From positions 62,001 to 126,000 of the forward strand of contig CAIYLG010000048.1 of assembly GCA_903927025.1 (NCBI GenBank): a stretch of 64,000 bases of DNA. Reading direction: 5' to 3'. Each line of letters starts with the position of its first letter. The first letter of the stretch is position 1. The translations under genes and the position numbers were made by a program. The notes under the pieces were generated by a model. That model searched no databases. It had not been told where the DNA came from and saw only the letters and a list, made by a program, of their open reading frames with translations. The stretch comes from an uncultured Armatimonadota bacterium. GTDB lineage: Bacteria > Armatimonadota > Fimbriimonadia > Fimbriimonadales > Fimbriimonadaceae. Below, in pieces: positions 2,911 through 9,945 of this stretch.

Positions 2911-2940
2911 TTGACTTCAAGGGGCAGCCTTTCGCATAAT
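2911..2940 (+). promoter_or_regulatory. Sigma-70-type promoter for the isocitrate dehydrogenase locus
   Basis: A TTGACT box (2911-2916) and a CATAAT box (2935-2940) are separated by 18 bases. Both are close to the -35 and -10 consensus. They lie 41 bases upstream of the first ATG of the two-gene isocitrate dehydrogenase unit. This is a sequence match only. Confidence 0.55.
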
Positions 2941-2980: not shown

Positions 2981-3283
2981 ATGATGACTCTGCATGGGGT
3001 GGACGTATACCTACGAACCCCTGAAATTCCGGATATTCCGAAGACGTACGGCGCCTTCACTCTTCAAATGATCTCTAACCGAGGCAGCCGGGTTTATCCA
3101 CCCCCCACACCTGAAATGGAGCTGAGCGACTGGCAGCAGTGCCGCTACCTCAGCGATGCCGAAGTCACCGACGCACAGATCGATGAACTGGTTGGACACC
3201 TCTCCAGCCTGGGATGGCAATGGACCAAGTGCCAGAAGCTGTTCAAGATCGACGGCGACAACGCATTCAGCCAACCGTACTAG
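2981..3283 (+). CDS. Stand-alone isocitrate dehydrogenase C-terminal domain protein
   Basis: A 100-residue protein preceded by AAGGA about 10 bases before the ATG. The segments GVDVYL (about 6-11), 'LQMISNRGSRVYPP' (about 28-41), 'CRYLSD...VT' and 'KLFKIDGDNAFS' match the layout of the small C-terminal domain that is fused to the catalytic domain in Thermus- and Rickettsia-type NADP isocitrate dehydrogenases. I compared these from memory. Here the domain is a separate gene, 31 bases before the dehydrogenase gene, which lacks it. It probably binds the catalytic subunit, as an accessory or oligomerisation module. That interaction is inference. A second in-frame ATG lies at 2984. Confidence 0.7.
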   Translation: MMTLHGVDVYLRTPEIPDIPKTYGAFTLQMISNRGSRVYPPPTPEMELSDWQQCRYLSDAEVTDAQIDELVGHLSSLGWQWTKCQKLFKIDGDNAFSQPY

Positions 3284-3314
3284 ACCCCGGCTAAGAGAGC
3301 CCAAGAGAGAAGAA

Positions 3315-4313
3315 ATGGCACATAAAGTTTGTTTAATTCGAGGAGACGGCGTCGGACCAGAACTGGTCGCTGGCGTCGAAGTGATCTTCAAGGCCGCTAA
3401 GGTAGACATCGACTGGATCGATGTCGAAGCTGGTCTCAAGTGCGTCGAGGCTGGCAAGCCGATCGTTCCAGAAGAGACCGTTGCCAAGATCAAAGAGATC
3501 GGCGTTGGCCTTAAAGCTCCTATGACGACCCCAATCGGCAAGGGATCGGTGAGCCCGAACGTTACGCTCCGCAAGAAGCTGAACCTTTACGCATGCGTCC
3601 GCCCCGTGCGATCGCTGCCCGGCGTTGTAACTCCGTTCACGAATCTTGACATCGTTATTTTCCGTGAGAACACCGAAGACCTGTACACCCAGATCGAGTA
3701 CATGGCCACCGAGACGGTTGCTCACAGCGTGAAGATTATCAGCGAGCAGGCCAGTGAGCAGATCTGCCGAGCCGCTTTTGAGTACGCCCGAGCCAACGGT
3801 CGAAAGAAGGTTGTTGGCGTCCACAAAGCCAACATCATGAAGATCGGCGACGGCCTGTTCCTTCGCACCTTCAAGCGAGTTGCGGCGGAATATCCAGACA
3901 TTGAGAGCTGGGACAACATCGTGGACAACCAGTGCATGCAGCTGGTGACCAAGTGGAACATCTACGACATGCTCGTCATGCCCAACCTGTACGGCGACAT
4001 CGTTTCCGACCTCGCTGCTGGAATGATGGGTGGTCTCGGTGTGGCACCTGGTGCCAACTATGGCAAGAATTGCGCGCTGTTTGAAGCCGTGCACGGTTCT
4101 GCTCCTAAGTACACCGGCATGAACAAGGTGAACCCCACCGCGCTTCTTCTATCGGCAACCCTGATGCTAGATCACCTCGGCGAGCACGAGGCACGAGTGA
4201 ACATCGAAGGCGCCCTCGAAGCAACCCTTGGCAAGGGAATCAAAACCTACGACCTCGGCGGCACCGCCACCACTTCCGGTTTCTCGGAAGCGGTTGCGAG
4301 CGAGTTGAAGTAA
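3315..4313 (+). CDS. icd: Isocitrate/isopropylmalate dehydrogenase family, probably isocitrate dehydrogenase
   Basis: A 332-residue catalytic protein that converts isocitrate to 2-oxoglutarate in the TCA cycle, if the assignment holds. Seen: 'LIRGDGVGPE' at the N-terminus, 'TTPIGKG..S.NV.LRK', 'IFRENTEDLY' and 'NLYGDIVSDLAAG', followed by 'FEAVHGSAP'. The Rickettsia/Thermus isocitrate dehydrogenases share the 'RENxEDLY' and 'TTP.GKG' patterns. Isopropylmalate dehydrogenase remains possible, but the preceding isocitrate-dehydrogenase C-terminal-domain gene argues for isocitrate. The frame opens further upstream; I chose ATG 3315 because AGAGAGAAGA lies directly before it and homology begins there. 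The protein ends at the catalytic domain. Confidence 0.87.
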   Translation: MAHKVCLIRGDGVGPELVAGVEVIFKAAKVDIDWIDVEAGLKCVEAGKPIVPEETVAKIKEIGVGLKAPMTTPIGKGSVSPNVTLRKKLNLYACVRPVRSLPGVVTPFTNLDIVIFRENTEDLYTQIEYMATETVAHSVKIISEQASEQICRAAFEYARANGRKKVVGVHKANIMKIGDGLFLRTFKRVAAEYPDIESWDNIVDNQCMQLVTKWNIYDMLVMPNLYGDIVSDLAAGMMGGLGVAPGANYGKNCALFEAVHGSAPKYTGMNKVNPTALLLSATLMLDHLGEHEARVNIEGALEATLGKGIKTYDLGGTATTSGFSEAVASELK

Positions 4314-4323
4314 GCCTCCAATC

Positions 4324-4358
4324 AAAAAGCCCCCGGCCAATTTGGCCGGGGGCTTTTT
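4324..4358. terminator. Bidirectional intrinsic terminator after icd
   Basis: A perfect hairpin with an A5 tract, GCCCCCGGCC arm, short AT loop, complementary arm and T5 tract. It sits between the convergent icd gene and the gene ending at 4382, so it can serve both strands. Confidence 0.9.
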
Positions 4359-4381
4359 GCGTTAATGGTTCGACTTTGAGA

Positions 4382-5458: not shown

Positions 5459-7723
5459 CTATCGCACGACGACGGCTGTGAATACCTTCTCTGCTGGTGC
5501 CAAACATTCCGACTCGGTACACGCTTGGTAACTCACCACCATCTCGAATTCAATGCCACTTTCGCCGGATGGGAGCTGAACCGAGAACACGATTTCGATA
5601 TTCCCGGTGTACTGCTCATCCACCGACGGCGGATAGCTGATTTCGGCTTTGGCGCCTTGGACCTGAATCTTCGTTGGCGTTAGCCAGCGTGCTGGCGGCG
5701 TGTTCGAGTTGATGTGGAAGCCTTCCGGAATGGCGATCGAGATAATTCCATTTCCAACGCCGCTGGCGTTTGCCTGAATTTCCCTCGCTGAAATCTTTAC
5801 GATAACGTCCGCGCTGAGCTTGGTAGGCACTGGAGCCGCGGATGCCACCGTCGCGGGGACTTCAATGACCGGTGCTTCGGCGGCAGAAGCCCCTTCTGAT
5901 TCGGGGTCAACCCCTTCGTACAGCAGGGCAATCGCCGCGGTATAGAGCGCTTCTGTGGCTTGCGGCGCCCTCGCCATCCATCCCTTTAGGCTCTGCAGAC
6001 TCTTGAGCGCACGACCACGGTCGCCCAGTTGGTGCAGACATCGAATCGCAATCGCGTTGGCGCTTGGTGTTGGCTGGTCAAAGACTGGCTTGGTTCGGCC
6101 GAATAGTTGCTCATGATCCGAGGAGGTGGCAAAGAATCCTCCGTTTTCCTCATCGTAAAACTTCGTGATCATCTCTCGGCAAAGCCGAACGGCCTGCCCG
6201 ATAAGCGCCTCGGTGGGAATCCCCTGTTGGGGGAGTTCGCCTTGCTGCTCTAGGTAGGAAACACACACCGCTAGCTTGAGAATGCCCTGAGTGAGGTAGG
6301 CGTAGTCGTCCAGGTACCCATATCCGCTCCCCGATCCCTGGGAGATAAGGTGCGGGAGGTGACCCAGCGACTTTTCGGCAGCCAAGATGCCTACCAACGC
6401 GTTCTGCGCCAACGGCCACATTCCAGCATCTGCGAGTGCTCCAATCGTCAAACCGTTCCAAGAGACAAGTGCCTTGTCGTCTAGGCCGGGAGCCACGCGC
6501 GTTTCGCGCTGGACTCGAAGCATCTCCAGTTCCTGCTCGAACTGGCCGGCGAGGTCCTCTTTGAGGTGAAGGATATTCACACCGGTCTTGAGACCGGTAG
6601 CTTCGTCTTCAAAATTTCCGTCGGCTGTGACCTGGAAGGCATCCATGAACACCGGCGCATGGTGTTTGATCAGCGCCTCGACTTCGTCCGCGCGCCATGT
6701 GTAGAACTTCCCTTCTTCCCCTTCGCTGTCAGCATCCTGAGCCGAATAGAACACCGACTGCTCGCTCAACATCTCTCGCATCAGCCAGTCGATGATGCTC
6801 TGAGCGGCGCGAGCGAACATCTGGGCAAGGGTTGGCTCAATTTCCGCAGCCATCCCCGCCGCCTGAGCAAGGTTGCCAAGGATCAGGGCGTTGTCATACA
6901 ACATCTTCTCAAAGTGAGGAAGAAGCCATTTCTCATCGGTGGAGTAGCGATGGAATCCGCCACCCACGTGATCGTGAATTCCGCCGAGAACCATCGCACG
7001 GAGCGTAAAGAGAGCCATGCTGATCGCCGCTTCCTGAAGGTCCGGCTCCGGGCTTGGGAGCATCGCGTAGCGCAACAGAAACTCAATCGCGGTGTGAGGC
7101 GGGAATTTCGGTGCCGCGCCAAAACCACCATTGAGCTGGTCAAAGCTTTCCGCCAGTGACTGAACCGCGATATCGAGAAATGCCTTGTTGAGTTCAACAT
7201 CAGCTTCTGGGGCAGGCGCTGTGAGTGCTTCCTCAAGCGCAGCCGAGATCTGCGTCGCAGACTCCTCAATGTCCTTTCGGCGTGATTTCCACACGGTTGC
7301 GAGTTGGCCAACCACCGTTAGAAATCCAGGGTGTCCCTCTCGGTCCTCTTTCGGCCAATAGGTACCAGTGAAGAAGGGCCGTCGGTCTGGCGTCATAAAG
7401 ACGCTCATCGGCCAGCCGCCTCGCTGACTCATCAGCTGCACAGCGGTCATATAGACTTCATCAACGTCAGGGCGCTCTTCGCGGTCCACCTTGATGCACA
7501 CGAACTCCGCATTCAGCAGATTGGCCACCTCTGCGTCCTCGAAAGACTCATGGGCCATCACGTGGCACCAGTGACAGGAGGAGTAACCAACGCTCAAGAA
7601 GATCGGGCGATCTAGCTTGCGCGCAAGCTCAAATGCCTCGTCTCCCCAGGGATACCAATCAACGGGATTGTCCTGATGCTGTTTTAAGTAAGGAGACGCG
7701 GAAGACGCAAGTCGATTCGGCAC
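5459..7723 (-). CDS. YyaL/DUF255 thioredoxin-domain protein with DsbD-like C-terminal domain
   Basis: A 754-residue protein of the YyaL/SPATA20 family. The N-terminal thioredoxin-like domain (about 1-180) has the typical 'NPVDWYPWG' and 'GYSSCHWCHVM', with the CHWC redox motif at about residues 50-53. A long alpha/alpha-barrel region resembling the six-hairpin glycosidase fold follows (about 200-610). The last 120 residues are unlike standard YyaL proteins. They form a beta-sandwich resembling the DsbD N-terminal domain, ending in 'YQACTESECLAP' with a spaced cysteine pair. No signal peptide is seen, which is odd for a DsbD-like module. The start is GTG 7723. The biochemical role of the family is unsettled. 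Confidence 0.88.
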   Translation of the reverse strand: MPNRLASSASPYLKQHQDNPVDWYPWGDEAFELARKLDRPIFLSVGYSSCHWCHVMAHESFEDAEVANLLNAEFVCIKVDREERPDVDEVYMTAVQLMSQRGGWPMSVFMTPDRRPFFTGTYWPKEDREGHPGFLTVVGQLATVWKSRRKDIEESATQISAALEEALTAPAPEADVELNKAFLDIAVQSLAESFDQLNGGFGAAPKFPPHTAIEFLLRYAMLPSPEPDLQEAAISMALFTLRAMVLGGIHDHVGGGFHRYSTDEKWLLPHFEKMLYDNALILGNLAQAAGMAAEIEPTLAQMFARAAQSIIDWLMREMLSEQSVFYSAQDADSEGEEGKFYTWRADEVEALIKHHAPVFMDAFQVTADGNFEDEATGLKTGVNILHLKEDLAGQFEQELEMLRVQRETRVAPGLDDKALVSWNGLTIGALADAGMWPLAQNALVGILAAEKSLGHLPHLISQGSGSGYGYLDDYAYLTQGILKLAVCVSYLEQQGELPQQGIPTEALIGQAVRLCREMITKFYDEENGGFFATSSDHEQLFGRTKPVFDQPTPSANAIAIRCLHQLGDRGRALKSLQSLKGWMARAPQATEALYTAAIALLYEGVDPESEGASAAEAPVIEVPATVASAAPVPTKLSADVIVKISAREIQANASGVGNGIISIAIPEGFHINSNTPPARWLTPTKIQVQGAKAEISYPPSVDEQYTGNIEIVFSVQLPSGESGIEFEMVVSYQACTESECLAPAEKVFTAVVVR

Positions 7724-7858
7724 GTACCAGTTTAGCGCCCTGGGACAATGTGGGAACGCAGCACGGTTGTTAGGATTTCGGAAAGAGTGTTCATTGATAG
7801 ATTCCTTACCTATGGGTGTAACCCGTTCACACCATTTCCAGTAATACTGGGAAAAGCT

Positions 7859-8506
7859 GTGTACTTACTGCTGCTGCTTGTTGGATCGCTTGGATTCCTC
7901 GCAATGACGCTGCTTGGTTTTATGCATGGCGGGGGAGCCCGCATGCACCATGCCGCGGTTGGTCACGCCCACGCTGGCTCACATACCGGAGGTGCCCACG
8001 CTGGAACCCACTCGGGCAGCCATTCCGGTGGACGCACATCAGCTCCTTCAGGCAAATCGTCTGGGGGCAGATCGCGGAACTTCCCTGCTTGGCTGATGAT
8101 CTCTCCCATGGATATCTTCGCTTTCTCGCTGGGAGCGGGAGCGGCAGGGCAAATATTCCAGCACATCGTCGGCGCCTCGCTTCTGCCGTTGATCGCTATC
8201 ATCGGTGCGCTCGCCTTCAACCTGGGACTCGTCAAGCCGATGATGTCCTTTATGATGAAGTTCGTCTCCAAGCCGAGCGATGGACTGGAAAGCGTTGTGG
8301 CCCACACCGCTGAAGCGGTGACTCGATTTGACTCCTCAGGACGTGGCCTCGTGCGAATTACGCTCGACGGCCAGGTCATTCAAATTCTGGCTATGCTGGA
8401 AGACGCCGATATCCACCACGGCGTTATCGTTAACAAAGGCGACGAGGTGGTCGTCGTCGAAGTCGACGCGGCTAAGAATGTATGCCGCGTTTCTAAGGAG
8501 CTGTAG
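7859..8506 (+). CDS. NfeD-like membrane protein with His/Gly/Ser-rich segment
   Basis: About 215 residues from GTG 7859, which has GGGAAAA upstream and directly precedes a hydrophobic helix; the frame stays open to 7748, so a longer form is possible. Order: membrane helix (about 1-22), a segment of about 55 residues rich in His, Gly and Ser, two close membrane helices (about 78-125), then a C-terminal OB-fold-like beta domain (about 130-215). NfeD proteins are encoded next to flotillins and are thought to work with them in membrane microdomains. The next gene is a flotillin, 56 bases on. The His-rich segment could bind metal, which is speculation. Confidence 0.7.
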   Translation: MYLLLLLVGSLGFLAMTLLGFMHGGGARMHHAAVGHAHAGSHTGGAHAGTHSGSHSGGRTSAPSGKSSGGRSRNFPAWLMISPMDIFAFSLGAGAAGQIFQHIVGASLLPLIAIIGALAFNLGLVKPMMSFMMKFVSKPSDGLESVVAHTAEAVTRFDSSGRGLVRITLDGQVIQILAMLEDADIHHGVIVNKGDEVVVVEVDAAKNVCRVSKEL

Positions 8507-8562
8507 AACGCACTCCGCGCATTCATCTTCTCGCAGACCCTCAAATCGGGGGGAGCAAACCC

Positions 8563-9945
8563 ATGTCTGAAGGAACTATTACCGCCGCTATTTTGATTGT
8601 TGTCGCACTGCTGTTGTTGCCGATTATCGCGAGTCGCTTCCTGCGCACCGTTGACGCCGGAACCATTCGCCTCGTTAGCTCGATGGGTGGAAACACGAAA
8701 ATCTACAAGGGTCCAGGAAAATCCTTTGAGATCCCTCTTCTGACAACAGGAACGACCATCCCCTCGAAGGCGATCAACATCGACCTCGACATTGCCGACC
8801 AAACTGCGGACGTCGACCGCAATGGGCAACCTCGTCCTATCAAGGTTCGAGTTCTTGCAAGCGCCATCGTCAGCGTTGGAGATTCCAACGAGACGGTAAA
8901 GACCGCCGCGAACCGCTTCTTTGCGAAGCCAGAGAACGAGCAGACGAGCACTCTGACCGACCTGCTGACATCCACAGGCCGCCGTGCTATCAACCTACTG
9001 CACCACGACGAGCTGTTCAACGCGAAGGCGAGCTATCCGATCGATGCGGGAGAGACACCGGTTGCGGTGAAGCCGATCACTTCCAACGTAGTGGGTGCCG
9101 ATGACGATGACCGCCTCGCGATCATTATCAAAAGCGCCTGCTCCCGCGAGCTTCAGGATCTTGGCCTTGTGTTCAATTCCCTGAACATCAAGGAAGTTCA
9201 AAGTGAAGTCGCGGAAGCTCGTCGCCGTCAGTCTGCGGTGGAGGCAAAAGCTAATGCCGACATCGTTCAGGCAGACCAGGAACGACGTTCGAAGGAAGCT
9301 CAGCTCAGTGCCGAGCAGGCTGTTAACGACAAGCAGCGCGACCTCGAACAGAGACGCGCCGAGAACGCCGCCGTCATTGCCAACGCTGAAGCAAAGAAGC
9401 AAGAGGCGCTTGAGTCCCTTCGAACCGCGGAACTTCGTGCCACTCAGATCGCTCAAGCAATTGCTGACGCTGAGAAGATGAAGGTGAATGCAGAGGCTCT
9501 CGCCGATGCCGAAGCGATCAAGCTCCGAAAAGTTGCCGCCGCGCAGGCTGATGCTATTCGCTTGGTCAACCAGGCGATCGCAGATGGAGGCGACTCCTAC
9601 CTGACGCTCCGACAGCTTGAAATGCTGCCCCAGATAGCCCCAGTGATTGCCAACGCGCTGGCTCAGGCTCGCCTGGTCAACATCTCCAGCGATGGCCGCT
9701 CGGCCGCAGGCGGTGCTGCCGACCAGATCACGGGTGTGATTCAAACGGTTCTGGCAGCGCAGCTGGTCACCGGCACGCTGAGGATGGATGGGTCCAATCC
9801 TGCAGCTCCCGTATCCCAAAGCCCAGTCATCACGGCAGACGCCCCTGCTCCTTCCTCGCCTTCCGTGAGCAGCACGACCACCACGCCCGTCAAGCCGATC
9901 ATTACCACTCAGGCCCCAAGACCGCCGATTAAGAAAGACATCTGA
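8563..9945 (+). CDS. Flotillin-like SPFH/Band 7 protein
   Basis: A 460-residue membrane-associated scaffold. An N-terminal membrane helix (about 4-28) is followed by an SPFH/Band 7 domain (about 30-200), a long Ala/Glu-rich coiled coil (about 205-335, with repeated 'ADAEK' and 'AEAKKQ' segments) and a Pro/Thr/Ser-rich tail from about 410. This matches YqiK/FloT-type flotillins, which oligomerise on the inner face of the cytoplasmic membrane. GGGGGGAG lies before the ATG. It is in one transcription unit with the NfeD-like gene and ends at a strong terminator. Confidence 0.88.
   Translation: MSEGTITAAILIVVALLLLPIIASRFLRTVDAGTIRLVSSMGGNTKIYKGPGKSFEIPLLTTGTTIPSKAINIDLDIADQTADVDRNGQPRPIKVRVLASAIVSVGDSNETVKTAANRFFAKPENEQTSTLTDLLTSTGRRAINLLHHDELFNAKASYPIDAGETPVAVKPITSNVVGADDDDRLAIIIKSACSRELQDLGLVFNSLNIKEVQSEVAEARRRQSAVEAKANADIVQADQERRSKEAQLSAEQAVNDKQRDLEQRRAENAAVIANAEAKKQEALESLRTAELRATQIAQAIADAEKMKVNAEALADAEAIKLRKVAAAQADAIRLVNQAIADGGDSYLTLRQLEMLPQIAPVIANALAQARLVNISSDGRSAAGGAADQITGVIQTVLAAQLVTGTLRMDGSNPAAPVSQSPVITADAPAPSSPSVSSTTTTPVKPIITTQAPRPPIKKDI

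Follow-up and report, generated by a model that had tools for sequence, protein, structure and literature searches.

Isocitrate dehydrogenase (IDH) is a textbook enzyme of central metabolism. Near the start of the window, as we call the whole 64,000-nucleotide stretch of DNA from an uncultured Armatimonadota bacterium that was analysed, a gene for a 100-residue protein lies directly upstream of a gene for a 332-residue dehydrogenase of the isocitrate type. The locus raises the question whether both genes together encode one IDH, with the C-terminal domain of the Thermus and Rickettsia enzymes detached and placed first on the chromosome, as was originally proposed from the sequence. The split pair proved to be real and broader than the original prediction stated, and a heteromeric IDH with a detached clasp subunit is its most likely reading. 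Both domains and the fused enzyme are already known; titles and abstract beginnings in the open-access PMC literature yielded no description of a split IDH or of a stand-alone PF18324 domain, and neither the two-subunit form, nor the two gene orders, nor the spread, Nitrospira included, was found described in that literature.

The small gene encodes a free-standing domain

The 100-residue protein matched the Pfam profile PF18324 (Isocitrate_DH_C_bact) over positions 3-106 of 110 with 61.2 bits (curated cut-off 25; E 1.2e-16), and it contains both patterns, MISNRGSRVYPP and LFKIDGDNAFS, that had first drawn attention to it. Among PDB chain sequences, searched up to an E value of 10, it matched only residues 391-491 of Thermus IDH (2D1C; E 5.9e-10). 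It maps to residues 375-478 of the 482-residue NCBIfam model NF006673, far under the whole-protein cut-off of that model, and is far under every other NCBIfam cut-off as well. An AlphaFold2 model built on an alignment of 49 sequences (mean pLDDT 94.6, pTM 0.87) had 2D1C as its single PDB match in Foldseek at E up to 0.001, and VIA-align superposed the model on 2D1C residues 386-493 with Z 15.0 and an rmsd of 1.5 A over 99 residues, the next row having Z 6.8. Profile, sequence and structure agree: the 100-residue protein is a complete, free-standing C-terminal domain of Thermus-type IDH, as had been suspected, and the profile and structural matches on whose absence the original prediction was to fall were both found. 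Given the quality of the model and its fold match to 2D1C, the small protein seems to be a complete domain that folds alone.

The fold is also weakly like S6-like and ACT/ferredoxin-like domains (best Z 6.8). Regulation through ACT-like ligand binding was considered and set aside; this similarity lies at Z 5-7, a range where unrelated folds score too.

When the small gene of the window was compared with those of its three closest relatives, dN/dS was 0.03-0.08, and with two further relatives 0.15-0.16, at dS values of 1.4-2.9, which are saturated. The small gene is under purifying selection, which is also why, together with its position beside the catalytic gene in 32 genomes (see below), it is regarded as a real gene. 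A tyrosine is the last residue of the clasp protein in all 86 distinct split loci outside Bdellovibrionota and in none of the 6 within this phylum.

The catalytic gene encodes a predicted NADP-type enzyme core

The 332-residue protein matched Iso_dh (PF00180) across the whole profile and lacked PF18324 in the Pfam search, in line with the earlier claim that the catalytic protein ends without the C-terminal domain. The mechanical open reading frame (ORF) carries its frame upstream to position 3156; the start given in Table 1 aligns with the starts of relatives. Its best NCBIfam matches were IDH models, all under their cut-offs, including those of the equivalogs NF006673 (382 against 509 bits) and TIGR02924 (320 against 561 bits), and its best PDB sequence matches were IDHs of 335-343 residues.

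Ten substrate, metal and catalytic columns, which we take to be those of S113, N115, R119, R129, R153, Y160, K230, D283, D307 and D311 of Escherichia coli IDH, are all conserved throughout the main domain-first group (51 of 51 rows, the window included) and across all rows of the split groups; duplicates are counted, and rows of fewer than 281 residues are excluded, in these and the following residue counts. With regard to the coenzyme, residues of the K344/Y345 type (K-Y) were assumed to indicate NADP and D-I to indicate NAD. The window has K-Y, within HGSAPKY, and its catalytic protein is predicted from these residues to prefer NADP. K-Y is likewise found in 44 of 51 domain-first rows (the others have RY in 2, PL in 4 and DI in 1) and in all 53 catalytic-first rows that belong to the main split groups (Nitrospirota and a Bacillota class), and D-I is found in 28 of 28 rows of a fused group named fused B (see below) and in the six Bdellovibrionota splits.

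Three split IDHs of one genus (g31; loci L051, L054 and L056 in genomes G147, G149 and G148, respectively) have K-Y replaced by P-L or D-I, so that their coenzyme use may have switched. A further Iso_dh protein, with a frame of 418-474 residues, is encoded in the same three genomes.

Organisation of the locus

The chromosomal order is the reverse of the domain order in the fused enzymes, as the original prediction had it (Table 1). The hairpin downstream of the pair is not on the list of the consensus scanner. No shared gene neighbour was seen in ten loci, a weak test in which mechanical ORFs were judged by eye; the unit therefore seems to be the gene pair alone. Elsewhere in the window, the minus strand carries a 754-residue ORF (5459-7723) that we take to resemble a YyaL/DUF255 protein with a thioredoxin domain, extended at its C-terminus by a domain like the N-terminal one of DsbD, and mutually adjacent plus-strand ORFs at 7748-9945 look like an NfeD-type protein and a flotillin-like protein.

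Table 1. Features of the gene pair and its flanks (window coordinates)
Feature	Coordinates	Strand	Basis
Promoter-like hexamers, end 40 nt upstream of the small gene	2911..2940	+	1 match, compared with 0.8 on average after shuffling; no better than chance
Stand-alone clasp (C-terminal) domain of type IV isocitrate dehydrogenase, proposed small subunit	2981..3283	+	100 aa; PF18324, 2D1C match, AlphaFold model
Intergenic stretch, 31 nt; flanking genes in different phase	3284..3314	+	Coordinates
Catalytic isocitrate dehydrogenase subunit, 332 aa, without C-terminal domain, predicted NADP-type (HGSAPKY)	3315..4313	+	PF00180 E 8.5e-94
Strong hairpin followed by T run, likely terminator of the gene pair	4318..4370	+	RNA fold -33.9 kcal/mol, z -7.3

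Distribution in Armatimonadota

PF18324 was found in 109 of 291 Armatimonadota genomes, and most matches lie in frames of ~500 residues together with the catalytic domain (fused form). In 32 of the 291 genomes, belonging to two families (f1 and f2) of the window's order, a stand-alone copy adjoins a catalytic gene, and a close ortholog of the window's catalytic protein (71-100% identity) is present in exactly those same 32, the next catalytic identity among the matches listed being 57% or less. Ortholog and stand-alone domain thus always occur together, and closest relatives with only the fused form, the other outcome that was to refute the prediction, did not turn up. The small gene is upstream of the catalytic gene and on the same strand in all 32 pairs, with gaps of 1-520 nt (the window's pair being counted by its coordinates). 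The phase difference between the paired genes is 0, 1 and 2 in 11, 11 and 10 pairs, respectively, and the stop codons vary.

Six of the 32 genomes, that of the window included, contain a fused copy in addition. Three Iso_dh proteins are encoded in the window's genome, namely the split one, a fused type IV IDH of 495 residues on contig C19 (G000:C19:95947-97368; minus strand of L033, 4948-6432) and a third on contig C38, which we take as LeuB because of its high score. The fused copy is a member of the NF006673 family (747 bits against a cut-off of 509), is 43% identical to the window's catalytic protein and falls into a different clade in the tree of catalytic parts. The split and the fused IDH may be used under different conditions. 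Elsewhere the split catalytic protein is the sole Iso_dh protein (3 of 32 genomes: G132, G133 and G066), or the sole other one scores like LeuB, as judged by score and not by a family model (five more: G067, G068, G069, G072 and G073). Monomeric IDH was found in none of the 32 genomes, and no other plausible IDH was found in eight of them; if those eight have an IDH, it is therefore most likely the split one. Catalytic-only IDHs, ~50-55% identical to the window's, also exist in the phylum.

Split pairs in other phyla

Scanning contigs beyond the phylum with the alignment of the small protein gave 265 relatives, the best 80 of which were examined; their frames include fused copies as well as splits of both orders, with the domain gene leading in Bipolaricaulota and the catalytic gene in Nitrospira and a small number of others. 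Four taxa were surveyed with PF18324. The 39 matches in Nitrospirota (37 of 245 genomes) are all in short frames of 116-273 residues and none is fused; a catalytic gene adjoins in 16 of the 16 that were read at locus level, and an in-frame stop interrupts one of the 39 (G574). Matches occur in 9 of 100 Bipolaricaulota genomes (3 fused, 6 short), in 20 of 144 Bdellovibrionota genomes (21 matches: 13 fused, 1 frameshifted and 7 short, one of the latter being the decayed fragment L228) and in 9 of 97 genomes of the Bacillota class of a Dethiobacter genome (4 fused, 5 short). The order is catalytic-first, and hence colinear with the fused proteins, in the Nitrospirota and Bacillota loci read, and both orders occur in Bdellovibrionota. 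Just two plasmid records had a match, both fused, and viral contigs gave no confirmed match.

The 206 loci classified, most of them chosen through their C-terminal domain (CTD), comprise 72 fused (the frameshifted L231 included), 113 split, 16 catalytic-only and five without a catalytic gene, the last being three contig ends, the decayed L228 and one stretch without a CTD. The CTD pieces at contig ends (L060, L066 and L204) and the frameshifted fused copy L231 were excluded before splits were counted. Removal of duplicates left 92 distinct split loci, 40 domain-first and 52 catalytic-first (mostly Nitrospirota), and 32 of the 92 are the Armatimonadota pairs; in 92 of 92, both genes are adjacent, on one strand and with frames at most 520 nt apart. 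The split IDH is thus not peculiar to the window's genome or phylum, but occurs also in Nitrospirota, Bipolaricaulota, Bdellovibrionota and a Bacillota class.

Nitrospira moscoviensis (G291), whose record is titled complete genome, has two split pairs (L137 and L190), both catalytic-first, and the Iso_dh proteins found in it are one LeuB-like protein (by score) and the two split catalytic subunits, with no others. Two records titled 'uncultured Nitrosospira' (L127 and L160) carry a Nitrospira-type split pair and are probably mislabelled nitrite oxidisers; L127 groups with Nitrospira in the tree of catalytic parts. The CTD piece L228 (Bdellovibrionota, G689:C3, about 108346-108531) has no catalytic gene on its 7-kb stretch and looks like the decayed fragment of a fused copy.

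Trees and direction of change

The unrooted tree of the catalytic parts (CAT tree; 80 rows, without any Thermus or Rickettsia sequence) places the domain-first splits from two sources, the window's order and Bipolaricaulota, in one clade (100/99) and the catalytic-first splits of Nitrospirota and Bacillota in another (100/100), and both clades lie together with catalytic-only IDHs within a group of 39 rows (89/91). Fused proteins of the NF006673 type (fused A), to which the C19 copy belongs, are separate (97/96), and the window is placed elsewhere. The fused B clade (100/91) has a catalytic-first Bdellovibrionota split group as its sister (joint branch 100/95), and the three domain-first rows from Bdellovibrionota group together (100/100), apart from the other domain-first rows and without a resolved place. 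The main groups were the same in an earlier tree with 84 rows.

The CTD tree, with 69 rows and as few as 101 columns, unites 34 split domains of both gene orders in one clade (100/99), the three domain-first Bdellovibrionota included, and leaves the catalytic-first Bdellovibrionota domains apart from it. Most split clasps thus share ancestry and, as both orders fall into one CTD clade, the order has changed while the partnership was kept. The different placement of the domain-first Bdellovibrionota in the two trees suggests that the histories of their two genes may differ. More than one change between the split and fused states is needed on these unrooted trees, which do not separate fission from fusion. 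The 'ancient split' of the original prediction is therefore upheld in its first word, since Bipolaricaulota and two families of the window's order share the reversed order, and left without a direction in its second.

The two clasps and the putative docking site

Passages of PMC3521221 describe the C-terminus of the Thermus thermophilus enzyme (TtIDH) as making a clasp-like second clasp (C2) over the first clasp, and part of PMC4360740 likewise points out the longer C-terminus of Thermus IDH. All 178 aligned rows that bear a CTD (54 domain-first, 56 catalytic-first and 68 fused; duplicates included) have an internal clasp segment of 28 residues. The same length is found in 13 of 16 catalytic-only rows, on whose stretches no CTD was found, so that the catalytic core can evidently exist without the clasp domain. 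The other three (L211, L215 and L216, from genomes G205, G043 and G046), which group near the split clades, have an internal clasp of 44-45 residues with an insertion of 16-17 residues. Among the aligned rows, the enlarged internal clasp occurs only without the domain, as if it were able to replace it. Two of these three genes adjoin one ORF each, which we take to be malate dehydrogenase-like, and the third sits among ORFs that are presumably aconitase/isopropylmalate isomerase- and fumarase-like.

Pairwise distances of catalytic part and clasp are correlated with r 0.82 over 35 split pairs and r 0.66 over the 23 pairs of the window's order alone, values reached by none of 2000 permutations; among fused B proteins, 17 of which were compared, r is 0.26, a value that 39 of 2000 permutations reach. 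Such a correlation is expected from co-inheritance alone and indicates co-inheritance rather than contact. The rate of evolution is ~2-2.7 times higher in the clasp than in the catalytic part.

Docking was modelled with a Nitrospirota pair that shares a frame and could be read as one chain after replacement of the stop by glycine (alignment of 54 rows, including fused B relatives). The AlphaFold2 model (mean pLDDT 88.3, pTM 0.87) overlays 453 residues of Thermus 2D1C with an rmsd of 2.2 A and a TM score of 0.92, so that both domains of this joined chain are positioned as in Thermus. As the chains were joined, fused relatives were in the alignment and AlphaFold2 may have learned 2D1C, the model speaks for compatibility of the docking site in a relative of the window's pair and is not proof of docking.

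A probable two-subunit isocitrate dehydrogenase

We consider it probable (about 0.8) that the locus encodes a two-subunit IDH in which a subunit of its own supplies the second clasp and docks like the fused domain. The two genes would form a bicistronic unit. The 332-residue catalytic subunit would dimerise, bind metal and isocitrate and, judging from K-Y, prefer NADP; the 100-residue protein would correspond to C2, the fused C-terminal domain of the Thermus and Rickettsia IDHs, would fold alone and would dock non-covalently over the short internal clasp, completing and stabilising the dimer. We infer complex formation and this stabilising role, with a stoichiometry of probably 2+2, and the model of the Nitrospirota relative supports the putative docking site.

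As a special case of this reading, whose odds it overlaps, the clasp might be a dissociable regulatory subunit that switches the enzyme between dimer and tetramer or between activity states. We regard this variant as possible but hold it only tentatively: several phyla encode the domain by a gene of its own and, according to parts of PMC7752914, clasps mediate the dimer-dimer assembly of human IDH3, but nothing was seen that points to ligand binding or regulation, and bicistronic coupling suggests constitutive co-assembly. More speculative, and doubtful in our opinion, is a widespread class of two-subunit IDHs, Nitrospira included, in which an exchangeable regulatory clasp, maybe via its C-terminal tyrosine tail, sets the oligomeric state or the direction between isocitrate and 2-oxoglutarate. 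Nitrospira fixes CO2 through the reductive TCA cycle.

Alternatively, the catalytic protein might be self-sufficient and the small gene a dispensable relict of an earlier fusion, as the related catalytic-only IDHs of the phylum and the same short clasp in 13 of 16 such rows would allow. The retention of the small gene in 32 of 32 genomes with the ortholog, its dN/dS of 0.03-0.08 against the closest relatives and the conserved C-terminal tyrosine (86 of 92 loci) argue against this and make it unlikely. It is very improbable that the small protein has an independent job, such as binding another enzyme or nucleic acid, and is merely co-transcribed with IDH; its weak fold likenesses (Z 6.8 at best) and the CTD fragment without a catalytic gene, L228, decayed as it looks, could be cited in favour, but the Z of 15.0 for 2D1C is far above all others and the small gene adjoins an IDH gene in 92 of 92 distinct split loci and in two gene orders. 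Hardly credible is an artefact, be it a fused gene broken by a sequencing or assembly error or one fused product arising through programmed frameshifting or read-through of a stop. The reading phase is shared in 11 of 32 pairs, as this would require, but random phases (11/11/10), varying stop codons, gaps of 1-520 nt, an order opposite to that of the fused proteins and the split pair L137 in the N. moscoviensis record rule it out.

The two-subunit reading has practical consequences, as both genes of an apparently heteromeric IDH are already in public genomes and, if the pair is one enzyme, a catalytic gene expressed alone misses half of it. The split pair is also a natural test of the role of the type IV clasp domain, because here the domain can be added or omitted.

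Comparison with known isocitrate dehydrogenases

Subfamily IV IDHs are described in passages of PMC3521221 as single chains of 480-500 residues with a C-terminal extension. The window shares the two domains, PF00180 and PF18324, with this type (TtIDH 2D1C, Rickettsia IDH, NF006673 and TIGR02924) but distributes them over two polypeptides of 100 and 332 residues in reversed gene order, and its catalytic part stays under both NCBIfam equivalog cut-offs and does not fall into the fused A clade in the CAT tree. The fused B IDHs of Ignavibacteria, Kapabacteria, Acidobacteria and order mates of the window (family f3) have both domains in one frame and a catalytic part up to 56% identical to the window's. 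They differ from it by their single chain and their NAD-type D-I, against two genes and K-Y, and their CTDs end in AQGE or AQGE plus one residue (25 rows listed), whereas split clasps mostly end in tyrosine.

The subfamily III-like IDHs (human and yeast IDH3 and, as we group it, Xanthomonas 6M3S) have the catalytic fold and length of the window's protein and are its top PDB sequence matches. IDH3 is also hetero-oligomeric, but its partners are full-length paralogs, whereas the partner proposed here is a clasp domain. The split IDHs of Nitrospirota and the Bacillota class resemble the window in having two adjacent genes, CTDs in the window's clade (100/99) and K-Y. They differ in the order, catalytic gene then clasp, in a catalytic part only 50-53% identical to the window's (representatives) and in a clasp protein of mostly 113-119 residues with an N-terminal extension, compared to the 100 residues of the window's.
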